DNA from: Firmicutes bacterium HGW-Firmicutes-12
GTDB taxonomy: Bacteria > Bacillota > Peptococcia > DRI-13 > PHAD01
DNA: 39,385 bases
Direction: 5' to 3'
NCBI GenBank assembly: GCA_002841595.1
Contig: PHAD01000011.1
Coordinates: 1-39,385 of the forward strand
This document shows positions 1-39,385 of this stretch, in pieces; within the stretch, counting starts at the first letter, position 1, and every line of letters starts with the position of its first letter. Both the position numbers and the translations under genes were made by a program. Under the pieces are notes generated by a model. The model did no database searches. It saw only the letters and a program-made list of their open reading frames with translations, and was not told the origin of the DNA.

Positions 1-1245
1 TTTTATTCCCCCTAGGATATACCCATTATCCTGGGCTTTTTCCATTGTATTGCATTGTGTCATAGTAAAGTCTTTGCGCCAGAGTACATTGCCTAACAAA
101 TCGGTTTTAAATAGATAAGATTTTGAAAGGGCCCCTCCATAAGCTGAGACTGTATAGCCATCGTTATTTTGAACTATAGAAGTGCCGATAATTGCGAGTC
201 CTTCTTTGGGATCTTTAAGCAGTTCCTTTTTGCTTACTATCTGCCCCGTACCATTCACTTTAACAAAGTCCACATAATATATAGTTCCAACATTACTTCC
301 CTGACCACCCGTTACATCAATGCTAACGGGTACCATGTCGTCAGATGATCCTACCAAGCCCAAATGTCCCTGTGCTCCAGTGGCTATGTAACTGCCGTCG
401 GCAGTTTGTAGCACGTCTTTGGCCTTAGAATTACCAGCGCTATAGTATTCACTATAGTTACGTCTCACTTGCCACTGTATATTTCCTCTGCTGTCAGTTT
501 TTACTAGCATCCTTCCAGAGGCCGCACTGCTTCCAGATCTATCTCCCCAATAGTAAGCGCCACTGTTCCAATCAAGGCATTGTTCCCAATACCCTGACAC
601 GATAAATCCTCCCTCTGTAGTCTCCTCAACGCTGTTTCCATATGTATAAAACTTCTTGCTTTCTGGATTATCTCCGTCATATAGGAAGTATTTATCCCAT
701 TGCTTATTACCAGAAGCATCTAGTTTTAAAAGATACATGCTCTTTTGTGGAATACTTATATTTGGTCTATTAGCATCGCTCATCATATATGGGGTATAAA
801 CGCCTGTAACTATATAACCACCATCACTAGTCTGTTTGATTGACGATCCATAATTAACTCGGTCTTTATTCGAGACACCGAACATTTTCTCCCACTCTTT
901 CTTGCCACTGTCATCAAGCTTCATAACCAGTAGCATTTCCTTGCGTCCATAGGGATAATCGTTTAATTCATCCCTGGCGGACCCCGTAATTATATAGCCA
1001 CCATCCTGGGTCATGTCCATGCCGTAGCCAACATAATCCCATTCATCTCCAGTACCATAGCTTTGTTCCCAAGCCACACTTGGAGTAGGAGCTTGGCCAT
1101 TTCCAGGATCCTGTTCCGATGCAACTCCCATTGTTTGCACTGGAATAGGTGTAAAACCCAATCCCAATATTAGTAAAGAAACCACTGTTTTCTTCAATAT
1201 CTTTTTAACCCAATGTATAACCATAACGCTTCTGTTATTTGACAT
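1..1245 (-). CDS. Secreted repeat protein, 3'-truncated by window edge (>=415 aa), with recurring DGGYIxTG motifs (propeller-like repeats)
   Basis: Manual translation from ATG at 1245 (AGGAGGT upstream) is open to base 1: signal-like VVSLLILGLGFTPIPVQT, then QDGGYIITGS, SDGGYIVTGV, EGGFIVSGYW, ADGSYIATGA, NDGYTVSAYG, DNGYILGGI, alternating with (L/V)KLD.SGNKxW segments. Missing from the ORF track because it has no stop in the window. Confidence 0.85.
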   Translation of the reverse strand, partial: MSNNRSVMVIHWVKKILKKTVVSLLILGLGFTPIPVQTMGVASEQDPGNGQAPTPSVAWEQSYGTGDEWDYVGYGMDMTQDGGYIITGSARDELNDYPYGRKEMLLVMKLDDSGKKEWEKMFGVSNKDRVNYGSSIKQTSDGGYIVTGVYTPYMMSDANRPNISIPQKSMYLLKLDASGNKQWDKYFLYDGDNPESKKFYTYGNSVEETTEGGFIVSGYWEQCLDWNSGAYYWGDRSGSSAASGRMLVKTDSRGNIQWQVRRNYSEYYSAGNSKAKDVLQTADGSYIATGAQGHLGLVGSSDDMVPVSIDVTGGQGSNVGTIYYVDFVKVNGTGQIVSKKELLKDPKEGLAIIGTSIVQNNDGYTVSAYGGALSKSYLFKTDLLGNVLWRKDFTMTQCNTMEKAQDNGYILGGIK

Positions 1246-1449
1246 GCAAAAATCTACCTCCTTTTGTATAAGATAAATACTGATTCATTTCAACAAATAG
1301 CATTGGTATAGAGGATAACTCATTACATTATTTTCCATTATCCCTTACTTTTCAATTTAACATTTTTAATCCTTTTATTCTTATAATATATTGCTGTATA
1401 CTATAAGATTATTGCTATATCGTGCGGGAGGTAGTATTTAGATATAATG

Positions 1450-1492
1450 AAAAAAGCCCCGCAGGTGCGTCGTTGACCTAACCTGCGAGGCT
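1450..1492 (-). terminator. Rho-independent terminator of the 1535-5212 gene
   Basis: Minus strand AGCCTCGCAGGT-loop-ACCTGCGGGGCTTTTTT; 12-bp stem with one G.U pair followed by a U-tract. Confidence 0.85.
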
Positions 1493-1534
1493 CTCTTTAT
1501 ATAAATTACTTGAATACGTACAGCACTTTTTTAT

Positions 1535-4500
1535 TTAATATATATCTAATATCTGAGCGGCAAAGGCATTATCCGAAGCATAAGCTGCATCGCTGTCGTA
1601 GTATTCAATAAAGAACTGCTGTGAAGCTATAGATTCATCATTTGCTGCTAAAGCGGCATAATTAGCATCAAGATACGCTTTAGTAAATGTAATGGTATCA
1701 TTTGCATCGTCTATCGTATAATTTGAAGGATCAACAACCGCTCCACCTGAACTCCCTACCAGAATCTTAATCCTATCGGTCAGAGTAGGAGTGAGTATAG
1801 AAGATCCATCGGTATCACATACGGTAAGATTGACTGTACATCCTCCTGCATCTCCAGTATAGTTATATGCTCCTATTATCGATGCCGTTTCGTTACCTGT
1901 CTCCAGATGTGGATTAGCAATGATATCTACTCCTGTAGGATCACCATTGGAATCGGTAGCGGATTTGATATTCAGGTAAGTGTGTGTTTCTATATTATTC
2001 TCGGTGTCTCGGACATAAAGCCTAATTACAGTATTTACCGCCGCACCAGATGTCCTCTGACCCAATATATATAATGTATTTCTGGGATTAGCATCCACCA
2101 CTCCGGGCATTTGACACGGTGTTACCACAAAACTGGTTAGATTATCTGTATTACCGCTCACCTCGATAAAGAATACCTTAAGGCTACCGTTGGCCGTATT
2201 CCCTACATCAGCTACGGACTTGGCCTGAATGAGGGCATCGCCGTAATTGCTTGCTCGAGCAGTTTTAATGTTAACCGCTGCTCCCCCATTCCAATAGGTT
2301 CCTTCAAGGTCATTATAGGTAACACTGTAGTTGTTTTCCAAGCCAATAGCGTTATCAAAGTGTCCCTGCATGGTTCCTGGACCTCCGCCCGATACCCACT
2401 GTTCATTGGAATTCAGCCTGATACCACTTTCTACATAACTTCCTCCTGTGGCAGGGTTGCCTGCCACATCTGCTACGATTGGTTCAGGCCCAAATATTTG
2501 GTCATAACCTTCAATACCATCTGACAGATTGACTGTTACCATCTTACCATCAGCAGACAGGGCAACGCCGCTAATCGTTGTACCACCGTTATTAGCATCT
2601 GAAAAACTCCAGTTAGCCGCATTTGTGGCAGCCGCCCTGTTGAGAACTTCATTATAGGTTACTGTAAATGTCGTTGCGTTTGTTTTAGTCCAGTCAGTGC
2701 TAATAGTCGGGGATGTAGACTCTTTTCCCACTGCAACACTGTATTTGACGATTGTATTATCTATATATTTGCTTCCATCGGAATTCTGTATATTTGTATT
2801 GGCAGGGACTACGGATACAAATTTATTATGGGGGATAAAGGTCTGATCTGTGGCCTCATCCAAGGTCATTGTCAATTGGTCGGAGGCTGCACTGTAGGCA
2901 AAGGCGGCGGTAGTTGTCGTAATATTTACAGGATTGGTACCTGAATTATCATCTGCATACTGAATCGTCCAGTTAGCAGGGTTTTCCGCCCTCGCCTGAT
3001 TAAGGTCTTCCGAGAAGGCAATTACAATTGTATCACCTGCCGCATGGTTAGAAGTACCGGTAGCAGAAGTAATCAGGTCACCGGCCACGGCTGCTACGGC
3101 TTCTGTGGTAACATTCGCAACGCTAGAGGAAATGCCTGCATTGTTTCCCCCGGTCACAACCAGTCTGAACACATAGTCCGTAGATGCTGTCAAGCCTGTT
3201 ACTGTTGCCGTTGCCGCATCCACGGCCAGTGCGCCTGTTACCGAATCTGTCCAGAGTATATCTCCCGGATGCATTTGCTGTATTTTTACCGCACTAGCTC
3301 CCGCTGCTGCCGTCCAAGTAAAGATTGCCGTTGTACTAGTTTTTGTAGTGTTCGCAAAATCCGCAATTGAAGTAACTGTAGGATCGTGGAAATCGACCCT
3401 CAGGTCATTCTTGGTAGAATTCGTTATCGCTGCCGCGCTTCCTCCAGTAAATGCAGTATCCTGGAAGGCTATGGTCAGGTTAGAAATATCATCTGCTTCA
3501 GCATGGCTTGTCGCACTATCCATCAAGATCAACCATACCGTTGTCGCTGTCTTTCTCCGTACTTCTGCTGTCATCCCCGCCGGTGTGTGGCTTACTGTTG
3601 CTTTGCCATCAGCAACGAAATCATCATTTAATACTCCTGTAAAAGTGTCCCCGCTTAAGGTTATTTCCAGCGGACCATCTATTGACCCGTTATTTCCCGG
3701 AACTTCAATAAACAAACCCTCGCCGTAAGCCAAGGAACCGACTGCCGCTACTAGTATCGGCCCTTTGGCTGTACTGGTTTGTGTCCCACTATAGCTACCT
3801 GAAGCTGTTAGTGTAGCTTTAACAAATTTTCCTGCATCACCGGCCACTGGAGTATACTTGTTCGTCGTTGCTCCGGCTATATTTGCGTATGTGCCATCTA
3901 CTGTGTTAGAAATTGTCCACTGGTAGGTACCTGTTGCTTCCGAGGGTGTTGGTGCAGCAGATAATTCAACTCCAACCTTAGCTTCACCTGTCACGGTAAG
4001 AGCGCTTACCGCCGTACTTGTCGCTCCACCGCCGCCACCGCTATCCCCTGATGATGGTGTTGGAGGGGGTGTTGCGGGTTGGGTTGTCGTTGGAGGGTTT
4101 ACACCTGTGGCTGTATTAACATTCGGTTGTGTAGTTGTGGAAATAACAACATCATTTGCATTTACATTAGCCGTAGTTACCGTACCTCCACCGGTTACGG
4201 TTGCCGCTGTATTGAGAGTAACATTAGTTACCCTTGTCCCTGCGGCCACGGTTACTGTGGCCGTATTGTTTACAACAATATTTTCTATCGTTGTCTGACC
4301 CTGAGTTGATACAACAGCGTCAGTTGCAGTTATTTCTACATTTGAGAAAGTACCTTCCAAGATAACTTCCTCTCCCGCTTCCCCGGTCGCAACCACCACA
4401 CTCACACCTTGTGCATTGGTAACTACAACTCTGGTTCCGCCATCAGGGGTATTTTCAATAACTACATTCCCTTGGAAGGAACCACCATCAATATGAATAC

Positions 4501-5212
4501 TGTTCTTACCGCCGCCTCTTACAAAGGTATTCCCCAAAACAGTAATATTATTTAGGAAAACATCCCCGTCTCCTACGGATTCTGCAATAGTCAAATTCCC
4601 TTTTATGACTTTGTTCTGTAATGTTACGTCTCCTACTGCAATCGTAACATTACCCATTATGGTTTCCAAGCCTTGTGCTGGACCATAAATTCCTTTTTCA
4701 CCAATGGTTTCCGAGTAACCATAAAACTCTACACTTCTCGTATTACCATCCCATTGATAACCTACATTCAGAGCCCTGGCAATAAAGGCAATCGGCAGCA
4801 TAGTTCGCCCTCCACCGCCACCGATGTCTTTAATTTCGGCGGCTGTATCCATCAGGAGGACTTTACCATTAACAACTAGTTCTTTGCTGCCAATCTTGAT
4901 TCTGATCAGATCATGGCCTCTGGTAATTTTCACAGTACGGTCTTCTGGGTTCCAAACAGCATTGTCTGTCCCCAGGGCAGGCGCTATAAATGCTACTGGA
5001 ACTAAAGTTCTACCCTCTTTTATATAAGGTGCTACGTCTGTTATAACTGTAGTGCCACCTTGTTGATAGCTTTGCTGCCCGATTGCAAAGGTTACTATCT
5101 GATCAGAACCTTTTACTTGATCGGCTGCCAACAAATTAAATGACAGCAAGGAGAGAGTCATGATGATCAATATAATAATTGCTAGCTTTTTACCTTTGCT
5201 TAGCTTCCCCAT
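1535..5212 (-). CDS. Surface/stalk protein: N-terminal copper-amine-oxidase-N-like domain, beta-helix-like region, Ig-like and fibronectin III-like modules
   Basis: ORF 1225 aa with signal peptide; GRTLVPVAFIAPALG...W....TVKI and GGRTMLPIAFIARAL are typical Cu_amine_oxidN1 repeats; GNVTI.VGDVTLQNKVIKGNLTI ladder; PPPTPSSGDSGGGGG linker; FN3-like TATVTGLTASTDYVFRLV. Confidence 0.85.
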   Translation of the reverse strand: MGKLSKGKKLAIIILIIMTLSLLSFNLLAADQVKGSDQIVTFAIGQQSYQQGGTTVITDVAPYIKEGRTLVPVAFIAPALGTDNAVWNPEDRTVKITRGHDLIRIKIGSKELVVNGKVLLMDTAAEIKDIGGGGGRTMLPIAFIARALNVGYQWDGNTRSVEFYGYSETIGEKGIYGPAQGLETIMGNVTIAVGDVTLQNKVIKGNLTIAESVGDGDVFLNNITVLGNTFVRGGGKNSIHIDGGSFQGNVVIENTPDGGTRVVVTNAQGVSVVVATGEAGEEVILEGTFSNVEITATDAVVSTQGQTTIENIVVNNTATVTVAAGTRVTNVTLNTAATVTGGGTVTTANVNANDVVISTTTQPNVNTATGVNPPTTTQPATPPPTPSSGDSGGGGGATSTAVSALTVTGEAKVGVELSAAPTPSEATGTYQWTISNTVDGTYANIAGATTNKYTPVAGDAGKFVKATLTASGSYSGTQTSTAKGPILVAAVGSLAYGEGLFIEVPGNNGSIDGPLEITLSGDTFTGVLNDDFVADGKATVSHTPAGMTAEVRRKTATTVWLILMDSATSHAEADDISNLTIAFQDTAFTGGSAAAITNSTKNDLRVDFHDPTVTSIADFANTTKTSTTAIFTWTAAAGASAVKIQQMHPGDILWTDSVTGALAVDAATATVTGLTASTDYVFRLVVTGGNNAGISSSVANVTTEAVAAVAGDLITSATGTSNHAAGDTIVIAFSEDLNQARAENPANWTIQYADDNSGTNPVNITTTTAAFAYSAASDQLTMTLDEATDQTFIPHNKFVSVVPANTNIQNSDGSKYIDNTIVKYSVAVGKESTSPTISTDWTKTNATTFTVTYNEVLNRAAATNAANWSFSDANNGGTTISGVALSADGKMVTVNLSDGIEGYDQIFGPEPIVADVAGNPATGGSYVESGIRLNSNEQWVSGGGPGTMQGHFDNAIGLENNYSVTYNDLEGTYWNGGAAVNIKTARASNYGDALIQAKSVADVGNTANGSLKVFFIEVSGNTDNLTSFVVTPCQMPGVVDANPRNTLYILGQRTSGAAVNTVIRLYVRDTENNIETHTYLNIKSATDSNGDPTGVDIIANPHLETGNETASIIGAYNYTGDAGGCTVNLTVCDTDGSSILTPTLTDRIKILVGSSGGAVVDPSNYTIDDANDTITFTKAYLDANYAALAANDESIASQQFFIEYYDSDAAYASDNAFAAQILDIY

Positions 5213-13012: not shown

Positions 13013-13302
13013 CATGTTCTTCCACACTTTCATGTAGCACTGACTATATCTTCGACTGCCATCTTATTTCTCGGCAGCCGTCTGGCGTATTATGAAGGCT
13101 TCTTATCGTGTTTTGCCTCCATCCCAGCACTCCTTTGCAGACGCACACATGTACGATAGCTTTAGGAGTCTGTGAGTCGATACAGGGCTGGTAGCTTTCG
13201 CCTCATACCCCTCGGTATTGCCTTAGTGCAGATGCACCTTAGGTTTCACCGATTAAGCCAGATTATCACCTACAGATCACTCTGCAGGGCGACTCTTTTC
13301 AA
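13013..13302 (-). ncRNA. Group I self-splicing intron (~290 nt) inserted in the tmRNA T-loop
   Basis: T-arm split: GGACAGGGGUUCGAU | UUGAAAAGAG......AAGAACAUG | UCCCCUCACCUCCACCA; rejoining restores AGGGG-UUCGAUU-CCCCU. Core: CGGUGAAACCUAAG (13238-13251) / GGCAAUACCGAG (13211-13222), GUGCAUCUGCAC hairpin, R-like GACUCACAGACUCC (13166-13179), S-like GAAGAUAUAGUC (13042-13053). Intron ends in G; 5' exon ends in U; P1 CGAU/GUCG with terminal U.G. Confidence 0.9.
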
Positions 13303-13515
13303 ATCGAACCCCTGTCCGAAAGAACGACCACAGAAGCATCTCCGAGCGCAGCCTATAATTTAATTCTCGCCCGCCGGACTCCAGATAGGCACGGATTCCT
13401 TTGCGCCAGTCCCATTAATTTCCCCTTAGGTTATGCGACTCTCCCCTAAGAGTATCCTGCTAATTTGACCCCTTATCCCTCACCGCAGGAACAGAAGGTA
13501 AGAGGTAAAGCTGCT

Positions 13516-13545
13516 TTAGGCAGCTAAAGCGTAATTATTGTTAGC
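13516..13545 (-). other. tmRNA proteolysis tag reading frame: ANNNYALAA-stop
   Basis: GCT AAC AAT AAT TAC GCT TTA GCT GCC TAA; YALAA C-terminus. An earlier in-phase GCA could give AQQSNANNNYALAA, but position 91 fits the known resume-codon location. Confidence 0.8.
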
Positions 13546-13667
13546 GTTTGATTGTTGTGCGCCGTTTTACGGGCTAACGCGACCCCGGCTCGCTTCTTCT
13601 GCCACCGCTTCCCCCGTCGAAACCAGTACACCCCCAAAATTTAATAAGCGATTTAATTTAGTATTGG

Positions 13668-38187: not shown

Positions 38188-38933
38188 TACTCCAATTTAG
38201 CATTTTTATAGAAATTCTCTATATGCTCAGTCATTAATCTTTTAGCTTCTTGTTCGTCTTTTGTTTTGATCATCAATAAAATCCTTTTGTGCTCTTCTAT
38301 TAAGGCTTCCCTTACTTGGGTCAATTCCATAATATTTGCAAAGGCCTCCTGCATTATCCGAAGGAGCGTATGTCGTATGGCTAGCATAACCAAAACATTA
38401 ATCCTATTTTTGCCAGCACGAGCAACGGCTAAGTGAAATTCTAAGTCTGCATCATGAAACTGTTTCCAATTAGATTCTTCCTCCATTACTTCAATTATTT
38501 GCTCTATCTCCTGAATATCCTCATCTGTAGCCCTTCTTGCGGCCCAGTATACGGTAATACTCTCAATTGCCACTCTGTACTCAATCAGTTCTTTTTCACT
38601 TATTTGCTCCAATAAAAATAACCTTTGTAACCCATCAACCGTCGTACTAGTTGTAAGCGGTTTAACAAATATTCCTCCAGATACCGCTCCTGTTCTGACC
38701 TCCAGCATCCCGTTACTTTCTAATATTCGTACAGCTTCTCTCACCGAGGCACGTCCTACACCAAACAATTGTTGTAGTTCTCTTTCACTCGGGAGACGAT
38801 CATGCGGCTTTAGTTCACCACTAATAATGGCTTCCTCAATCTGGCGAGCAATGTCTTGAAAGGTTCTTGTTGGCGCCGCTTTGTGAAAGCTCAGCTGCGA
38901 TTGGCTAGCGATCTTATCATTTAAAAAGGGCAT
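38187..38933 (-). CDS. GntR-family transcriptional regulator, FadR/FCD subfamily
   Basis: N-terminal wHTH LPSERELQQLFGVGRASVREAVRILESNGMLEVR; C-terminal FCD domain (DADLEFHLAVARAGKN). Confidence 0.93.
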   Translation of the reverse strand: MPFLNDKIASQSQLSFHKAAPTRTFQDIARQIEEAIISGELKPHDRLPSERELQQLFGVGRASVREAVRILESNGMLEVRTGAVSGGIFVKPLTTSTTVDGLQRLFLLEQISEKELIEYRVAIESITVYWAARRATDEDIQEIEQIIEVMEEESNWKQFHDADLEFHLAVARAGKNRINVLVMLAIRHTLLRIMQEAFANIMELTQVREALIEEHKRILLMIKTKDEQEAKRLMTEHIENFYKNAKLE

Positions 38934-39034
38934 ATCCTTCTCTCCTTATTTTGTTTCATCTATTAAGTAGGCTAATTAATTTTATCTTATGTGACAAAAA
39001 GAAACAAGTTTGATATTAATCTTACTTTTATTTA

Positions 39035-39073
39035 CAAAAGGTCTCTTGTGCACGCAATGCGCCAAGAGACCTT
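39035..39073 (-). terminator. Riboswitch expression-platform terminator
   Basis: AAGGTCTCTTG-gcgcattgcgtgca-CAAGAGACCTTTTgt on the minus strand, between the B12 aptamer and the gntR gene. Confidence 0.75.
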
Positions 39074-39133
39074 CCCATCTTAAAAGTCACTTTCTAAATA
39101 CGATAAGTAAATATACCCCTCACTTATCATATC

Positions 39134-39295
39134 AATTTAAGGCAGGTCTCCTGACTCACAGCTTATCCTCATCCCAACCTTCCCAGGTAAATAAAACCCA
39201 GTGGCGCATCAGGGATTTGTAACTGTTTACAGTGGTGGGCCCGTACTGGTTTTTCACCAGTTTCCCTATTAACTCTTATAAGAGTACCTTAAATT
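39134..39295 (-). promoter_or_regulatory. Cobalamin (B12) riboswitch aptamer
   Basis: Minus strand: AATTTAAGG (P1) ... ATAGGGAAACTGGTGAAAAACCAGTACGGGCCCACCACTGTAA ... GCGCCACTGGG ... CTGGGAAGG ... GTGAGTCAGGAGACCTGCC ... CCTTAAATT (P1'). Contains the B12 box AGTCAGGAGACCTGCC at 39156-39141. Confidence 0.95.
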
Positions 39296-39321
39296 ATTAT
39301 CAAATTTTCTACAATATTTAA

Positions 39322-39385
39322 CTATAGAACAACTCCACCGTCAACACTTAATACCGCACCAGTAATATAAGCGGCATCATCGGAA
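39322..39385 (-). CDS. C-terminus of a short-chain dehydrogenase/reductase (FabG-like), truncated by window edge
   Basis: SDDAAYITGAVLSVDGGVVL* matches the conserved SDR C-terminal S..a.yitGa.l.vDGG. Confidence 0.8.
   Translation of the reverse strand, partial: SDDAAYITGAVLSVDGGVVL

Follow-up and report, generated by a model that had tools for sequence, protein, structure and literature searches.

Why should a cobalamin riboswitch stand in front of a gene for a GntR-family regulator? In the window, by which is meant the whole 39,385-nt stretch of Firmicutes bacterium HGW-Firmicutes-12 DNA that was analysed, such a riboswitch precedes gntR, and genes for a B12-dependent acyl-CoA mutase follow. 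The reading favoured here, with a probability of roughly 0.6, is that B12 would turn off a GntR repressor and so would indirectly turn on the B12-requiring mutase, riboswitch and repressor together acting as an inverter.

The cobalamin leader and its expression platform

The aptamer (RF00174) occupies 39306–39124 on the minus strand, on which all features located below in the window also lie. Its match covers the entire Rfam model (positions 1–189 of 189) at 119.6 bits (E = 1.3e-29) compared with a gathering score of 31.5, and the full minus-strand aptamer claimed in the initial annotation of this DNA is thereby borne out. Within it lies the B12-box segment GTCAGGAGACCT (39155–39144), the predicted 5′ strand of an antiterminator. 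A linker hairpin, GATAAGT...ACTTATC (39128–39102), is present in the MFE folds and occupies what we take, from general knowledge of cobalamin riboswitches, to be the place of P13. The window also contains a tmRNA gene (13300–13627, minus strand, 140.6 bits).

The partner of the B12 box is AGGTCTCTTGGC (39072–39061), which serves both as the antiterminator 3′ strand and as the terminator 5′ arm. Complementarity between box and arm extends over 12 bp, one G-U pair included, where the initial annotation had named seven. The predicted energy of the duplex is −20.7 kcal/mol, compared with −8.1 ± 1.9 kcal/mol in 2000 dinucleotide shuffles of the 92-nt region, none of which was as good. The competing terminator hairpin, with its short U-tract (UUUUGU), spans 39073–39034; the automatic terminator scan missed both this hairpin and the terminator of gntR described below, and both were therefore folded directly. 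Its stem, AAGGTCTCTTG/CAAGAGACCTT (39073–39038), has −26.3 kcal/mol when folded with some flank and a probability of 0.98–1.0 in the fold of the full leader. The tail is just UUUUGUAAAU, weaker than a classical U-tract, and because it is short termination may be leaky. In folds of the growing transcript the best pair probability of the antiterminator is 0.94–1.0 at 3′ ends 39057–39045 and 0.01 at 39041, where the terminator reaches 0.99 and replaces it; the folds are computed at equilibrium, with ligand, kissing loop and kinetics left aside, and demonstrate mutual exclusion, not efficiency. The mutually exclusive antiterminator and terminator proposed earlier thus hold computationally, through the 12-bp duplex, the shuffles and the growing-transcript folds.

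Since the B12 box itself forms the antiterminator, a ligand that holds the box favours the terminator, and an OFF response is predicted. That the leader is an OFF switch on gntR, as first suggested, is supported in silico by the box–arm pairing, by the folds and by other cobalamin leaders in the class that have this box-to-terminator-arm platform. Natural ON riboswitches exist for other ligands, and an ON response, with bound cobalamin preventing the terminator and GntR rising with B12, can be conceived here too. However, it would run against the pairing just described, and elsewhere in the class comparable platforms stand before genes for B12 uptake and synthesis, where OFF control is expected; an ON switch is highly improbable.

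Cobalamin riboswitches were found in 37 of the 46 genomes of the class. A candidate terminator was present in 77 of 81 leaders, and the box:arm duplex reached −10 kcal/mol or better in 38, by a scan that was automatic and heuristic and several of whose hairpins are probably not true platforms. Among the 77 leaders with a candidate terminator, the window leader has the strongest box:arm duplex (−23.1 kcal/mol in that scan). The first genes after 72 class leaders, among the families listed (25 of 43), are CobT (11), BtuF-like binding proteins (10), DUF4430 (10), CbiQ (5), FecCD (4) and CbiM (3), and also CbiD, CbiK and NrdD; they are mostly B12-related. No homologue of the window's gntR, meaB, mutase or cobA was found in the first three ORFs at the 77 other class leader loci with a gene call (E 1e-4). 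Thus what is unusual is the gene that follows, not the switch; the platform is predicted to be of the standard B12-OFF type for the class.

Immediately upstream, a short-chain dehydrogenase (SDR) gene truncated by the contig end is represented by its C-terminal part (39385–39322); 15 nt separate its stop codon TAG (39324–39322) from the aptamer. The minus strand from 38934 to 39385, including the stretch between the riboswitch terminator and gntR, showed no promoter-like site of at least 9/12. An internal promoter driving gntR constitutively, a concern raised in the initial annotation, is therefore unsupported at that threshold, and the riboswitch is probably inside an operon, because the SDR stop is so near and no such promoter intervenes. 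One could take the riboswitch to be mainly the B12-gated end of this upstream operon, or a decayed copy, with another promoter sustaining gntR. The 15-nt spacing and the weak U-tract would suit this reading, as would a similar leader on another contig of the genome (C73), which makes duplication possible. However, the window aptamer outscores the other two cobalamin aptamers in the genome and its box:arm duplex is the strongest of 77, so that the element does not look decayed, and the stretch from its terminator to gntR lacks a promoter of at least 9/12. This reading is unlikely.

gntR, the mutase unit and a predicted operator

The gene behind the switch, gntR (38933–38187), encodes a 248-aa regulator with a GntR helix–turn–helix domain (PF00392, 1.9e-19) and an FCD domain (PF07729, 8.8e-24), the domain composition of the FadR subfamily, and has a ribosome-binding site, AAGGAGAGAAGG, upstream of its start. 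It is followed by an intrinsic terminator, GGACTGGT-GCGA-ACCGGTCT and then TTTTTT (38185–38160; 8-bp stem, −11.2 kcal/mol). The two domains agree with the initial annotation of a FadR/GntR gene after the riboswitch terminator. Its accompanying remark that this is not a B12 gene stands for gntR itself and fails for the surroundings, where a B12-dependent mutase unit adjoins.

That unit begins with the sigma-70 promoter TTGACA-N18-TATAAT (38066–38037), which scored 12/12 in the promoter scan and is one of two perfect sites in the 345 kb of strand-bases scanned. Its genes are meaB for a mutase-associated GTPase (38001–37039; TIGR00750, 333 bits, above cutoff), mutA for the large subunit of a B12-dependent acyl-CoA mutase (37046–35271; TIGR00641, 532 bits) and mutB for the B12-binding small subunit (35356–34844; TIGR00640, 91 bits, above cutoff); the listed start of mutB overlaps mutA, and the true start is probably further downstream. 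A terminator, AAAGCCGCCAGTTGGGGGCTTTTT (34805–34780), separates mutB from cobA (34681–34088), a separate unit that encodes a probable cob(I)alamin adenosyltransferase of the CobA/BtuR type (TIGR00708, 163.8 bits, just under the cutoff of 167.75) and is preceded by a weak 9/12 promoter (34779–34751). Because gntR has its terminator and meaB its own 12/12 promoter, the two belong to separate transcription units, and meaB-mutA-mutB most likely forms a unit of its own, which encodes the B12-dependent acyl-CoA mutase together with its chaperone, a GTPase. A plain OFF switch on one long operon, gntR-meaB-mutA-mutB-cobA, in which the adenosyltransferase gene would be the target related to B12, would be consistent with the colinear genes on one strand and with the probable role of cobA in B12 handling. 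It is likewise unlikely, since a terminator and a 12/12 promoter part gntR from meaB, a further terminator parts mutB from cobA, and the cofactor would shut off the very enzyme that depends on it; in a Desulfovirgula MAG (L010), too, gntR and the mutase genes are separated by a terminator and a promoter.

The closest solved structure to the mutA product is 2-hydroxyisobutyryl-CoA mutase (4r3u, E = 3e-119). At the positions that we take to be the active-site residues of methylmalonyl-CoA mutase (MCM; Tyr89, Arg207 and His244 in P. shermanii numbers) the window mutase has Leu89, Arg207 and Asn244, and at those that we assume to be diagnostic of 2-hydroxyisobutyryl-CoA mutase (HCM; Ile90, Asp117 and Gln208 in HcmA numbers) it has Leu, Leu and Arg. 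Six sequences from five genomes, the window included (window; L004, L008, L010, L011, L012), have in common Leu for Tyr89, Leu for Ala116 and Asn for His244 in P. shermanii numbering, with Arg207 kept. This clade, which has neither the MCM nor the HCM pattern, seems to represent a type of acyl-CoA mutase in sulfate-reducing Firmicutes that has yet to be characterised. Ketone-induced 2-hydroxyisobutyryl-CoA mutase clusters are known from the sulfate reducers Desulfococcus biacutus and Desulfotomaculum spp. (PMC7888143, PMC8084838). The locus resembles them in its large and small mutase subunits with an SDR and in the closest structure, but differs in its active-site residues and in that this genome has no close TPP-dependent ketone-activating enzyme. 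An acetone pathway was set aside as the role of the mutase: the TPP enzyme near some relatives' mutases has at best a partial match here, at 30%.

A predicted GntR operator, TGGTAGTACCA (38025–38015), lies 11 nt after the −10 element of the meaB promoter and overlaps the edge of the meaB ribosome-binding site. The exact sequence occurs at three sites in the genome, all intergenic: in the window; at position 7671 of contig C95, just after a promoter and ahead of two CoA-transferase genes; and at position 1950 of C73, ahead of a TIM-barrel gene adjoining the genome's other two cobalamin riboswitches. Operator count alone was rejected as evidence, the genome (2.78 Mb) having 41 TGGTNNNACCA sites, with 0.5 expected in the window and 41 of 100 shuffles containing one. 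Because the count is within chance, only the position and the recurrence of the operator are informative. Each of the three exact TGGTAGTACCA sites follows, at a distance of 3–11 nt, the −10 of a promoter scoring 10/12 or more, and such a promoter stands just upstream of none of the 38 other TGGTNNNACCA sites (3/3 versus 0/38; p about 9e-5, the thresholds having been fixed with some sites already known).

On C73 the cobalamin riboswitches are in tandem (395–575 and 769–980) and precede an ORF that the contig end truncates; a terminator accompanies the first of them. The TIM-barrel gene, with TGGTAGTACCA after its promoter, is just upstream of the pair.

FadR-subfamily sites consist of TKGT/ACMA boxes in which GT and AC are typically 3 nt apart (PMC4494728). 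E. coli PdhR is related to the window GntR. Its box in E. coli is AATTGGTnnnACCAATT (PMC7660256). The palindrome TGGT-N3-ACCA, which conforms to TKGT/ACMA, is present as a predicted site at three promoters here and at two in L010, and at all five it lies 3–22 nt downstream of the −10. An operator in the start-site region is the classic position for repression. The direction of regulation is read from this position, and some GntR-family proteins activate; GntR, itself under the OFF switch, could then activate the mutase and CoA-transferase units, in which case B12 would lower both. However, activators usually bind upstream of the −35, whereas the operator is downstream of the −10 at five of five sites, and a perfect or near-perfect core promoter should need no activator. 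Activation is decidedly unlikely.

Recurrence of the predicted regulon and the probable operon upstream

In L010 the gene order is CoAT-a, CoAT-b, gntR, terminator, meaB, mutA, mutB, SDR, and the GntR orthologue is 63 % identical to the window GntR. There, a 10/12 promoter ahead of the CoA-transferases is followed after 14 nt by TGGTAGGACCA, and another, also 10/12, ahead of meaB is followed after 22 nt by TGGTATTACCA. Regulator, predicted operator and both putative target units recur together in this distant genome. No riboswitch was found in L010, L012, L145 or L146, nor at seven mutase loci of the Desulfosporosinus group, where an SDR-meaB-mutA-mutB cluster also occurs without this GntR; a riboswitch paired with gntR was seen in a single genome. 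Riboswitch conservation is therefore unusable as evidence. The simplest history would be that the riboswitch was added to a pre-existing GntR regulon, its loss in L010 being a possible alternative.

A search of the 46 class genomes for GntR orthologues (E ≤ 1e-50) returned only the window's own gene, and among 399 phylum genomes (E ≤ 1e-55) the sole addition was a 45 % homologue beside dehydratase-like genes, on a 6.3-kb contig (G168:C114) in which no TGGTNNNACCA site was found. In that genome the homologue (L060, 3171–3875) adjoins genes resembling 2-hydroxyacyl-CoA dehydratase subunits.

The SDR tail in front of the riboswitch is carried by the window alone. An SDR on C95, which follows the CoA-transferases and an MBL-fold gene, is cut almost exactly at the missing point, and an SDR on C46, 96 % identical to it in protein, is cut at the same place; each adjoins a CoA-transferase gene, and both ends are probably an assembly break at a repeat. 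A join of C95 to the window was considered and not made: synteny suggests it, yet C46 is compatible as well (13-nt overlap). The gene order in L010 speaks for C95 as the upstream contig, and if that is so gntR would be the last gene of an operon bearing its own operator. Also on C95, at 2–4603 (L022) and directly upstream of the TGGTAGTACCA-bearing CoA-transferases, are CbiQ-like transporter, ABC ATPase, prenyltransferase-repeat-like and ECF S-component-like genes, which on reading, without a family search, resemble a cobalt/B12 uptake cluster.

The proposed inverter and its known counterparts

The aptamer, the alternative hairpins, the gene order, the terminators, the promoter and the recurrence of the operator in two genomes with GntR orthologues are observed. 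From these we infer binding by GntR, repression rather than activation (from operator position alone), the ligand response and the physiological outcome. At low cobalamin the B12 box would pair with the terminator 5′ arm, read-through would follow and GntR would be made; by binding TGGTAGTACCA downstream of the −10 it would block the promoters of meaB-mutA-mutB and of the CoA-transferase operon. With cobalamin bound, the aptamer would hold the box, the terminator would form, GntR would fall and both units would be derepressed. The OFF switch would in this way be inverted to a net B12-ON response, with mutase and chaperone made when the cofactor is present. Because gntR adjoins the mutase unit and the predicted operator lies on the promoter of that unit, the net metabolic output is probably ON rather than OFF. 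The FCD domain probably responds to a CoA ester or an acid of the pathway, and the result would be an AND gate with B12. The odds are about even that the cobalamin OFF switch was inserted before an autoregulated repressor, so that a substrate-responsive regulon was made cofactor-requiring too; a feedback loop would follow, as gntR is probably the last gene of an operon that its own product represses.

RF00174 terminator-type OFF switches, which precede B12 uptake or synthesis genes and B12-independent isozymes, are alike in aptamer, box–arm antiterminator and predicted OFF response, but the controlled gene here is a FadR-type regulator beside B12-dependent enzymes. Likewise, FadR/PdhR/LldR-type repressors share the HTH and FCD domains, the TGGT-N3-ACCA operator and the predicted control of catabolic-type operons, whereas synthesis of the window GntR is predicted to be riboswitch-gated.

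Closer in logic are two Listeria RNAs. A B12 riboswitch controls AspocR, an antisense RNA to pocR, and a B12-requiring pathway is expressed with B12 (PMC8079631). The locus is predicted to be similar, with an OFF switch on a negative element giving B12-dependent expression, but in AspocR that element is antisense RNA directed at the gene of an activator, and here it is a sense mRNA for a predicted DNA-binding repressor, the riboswitch transcript being sense to gntR. The other is Rli55, of which Enterococcus EutX is a relative. Its B12 riboswitch terminates an EutV-sequestering RNA, freeing a B12-dependent pathway (PMC8079631). The inverted logic, in which B12 removes an inhibitor, is predicted here as well; the inhibitor in Rli55 is a protein-sequestering ncRNA acting on antitermination, whereas here it would be a repressor. 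A survey of antisense-acting riboswitches names two previously described cases only (PMC9943018), and no report of a cobalamin riboswitch ahead of a GntR repressor was found in the literature searched, largely without subscription journals and partly by title or abstract. Known natural circuits with such inverted B12 logic use non-coding RNAs, not a protein repressor. The switch taken alone is ordinary; what appears to be new is its placement on the gene for a regulator predicted to repress a B12-dependent enzyme.

Most cobalamin riboswitches are reported as OFF, so B12-induced expression of B12-dependent enzymes is largely an open question; in a 2024 study a mutase rose with B12 and had no nearby riboswitch to explain it (PMC11575231). 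The locus suggests a simple, evolvable answer, namely an OFF switch placed on a repressor. Together with L010, apparently the same regulon without the riboswitch, the window makes a pair for studying the acquisition of such logic.
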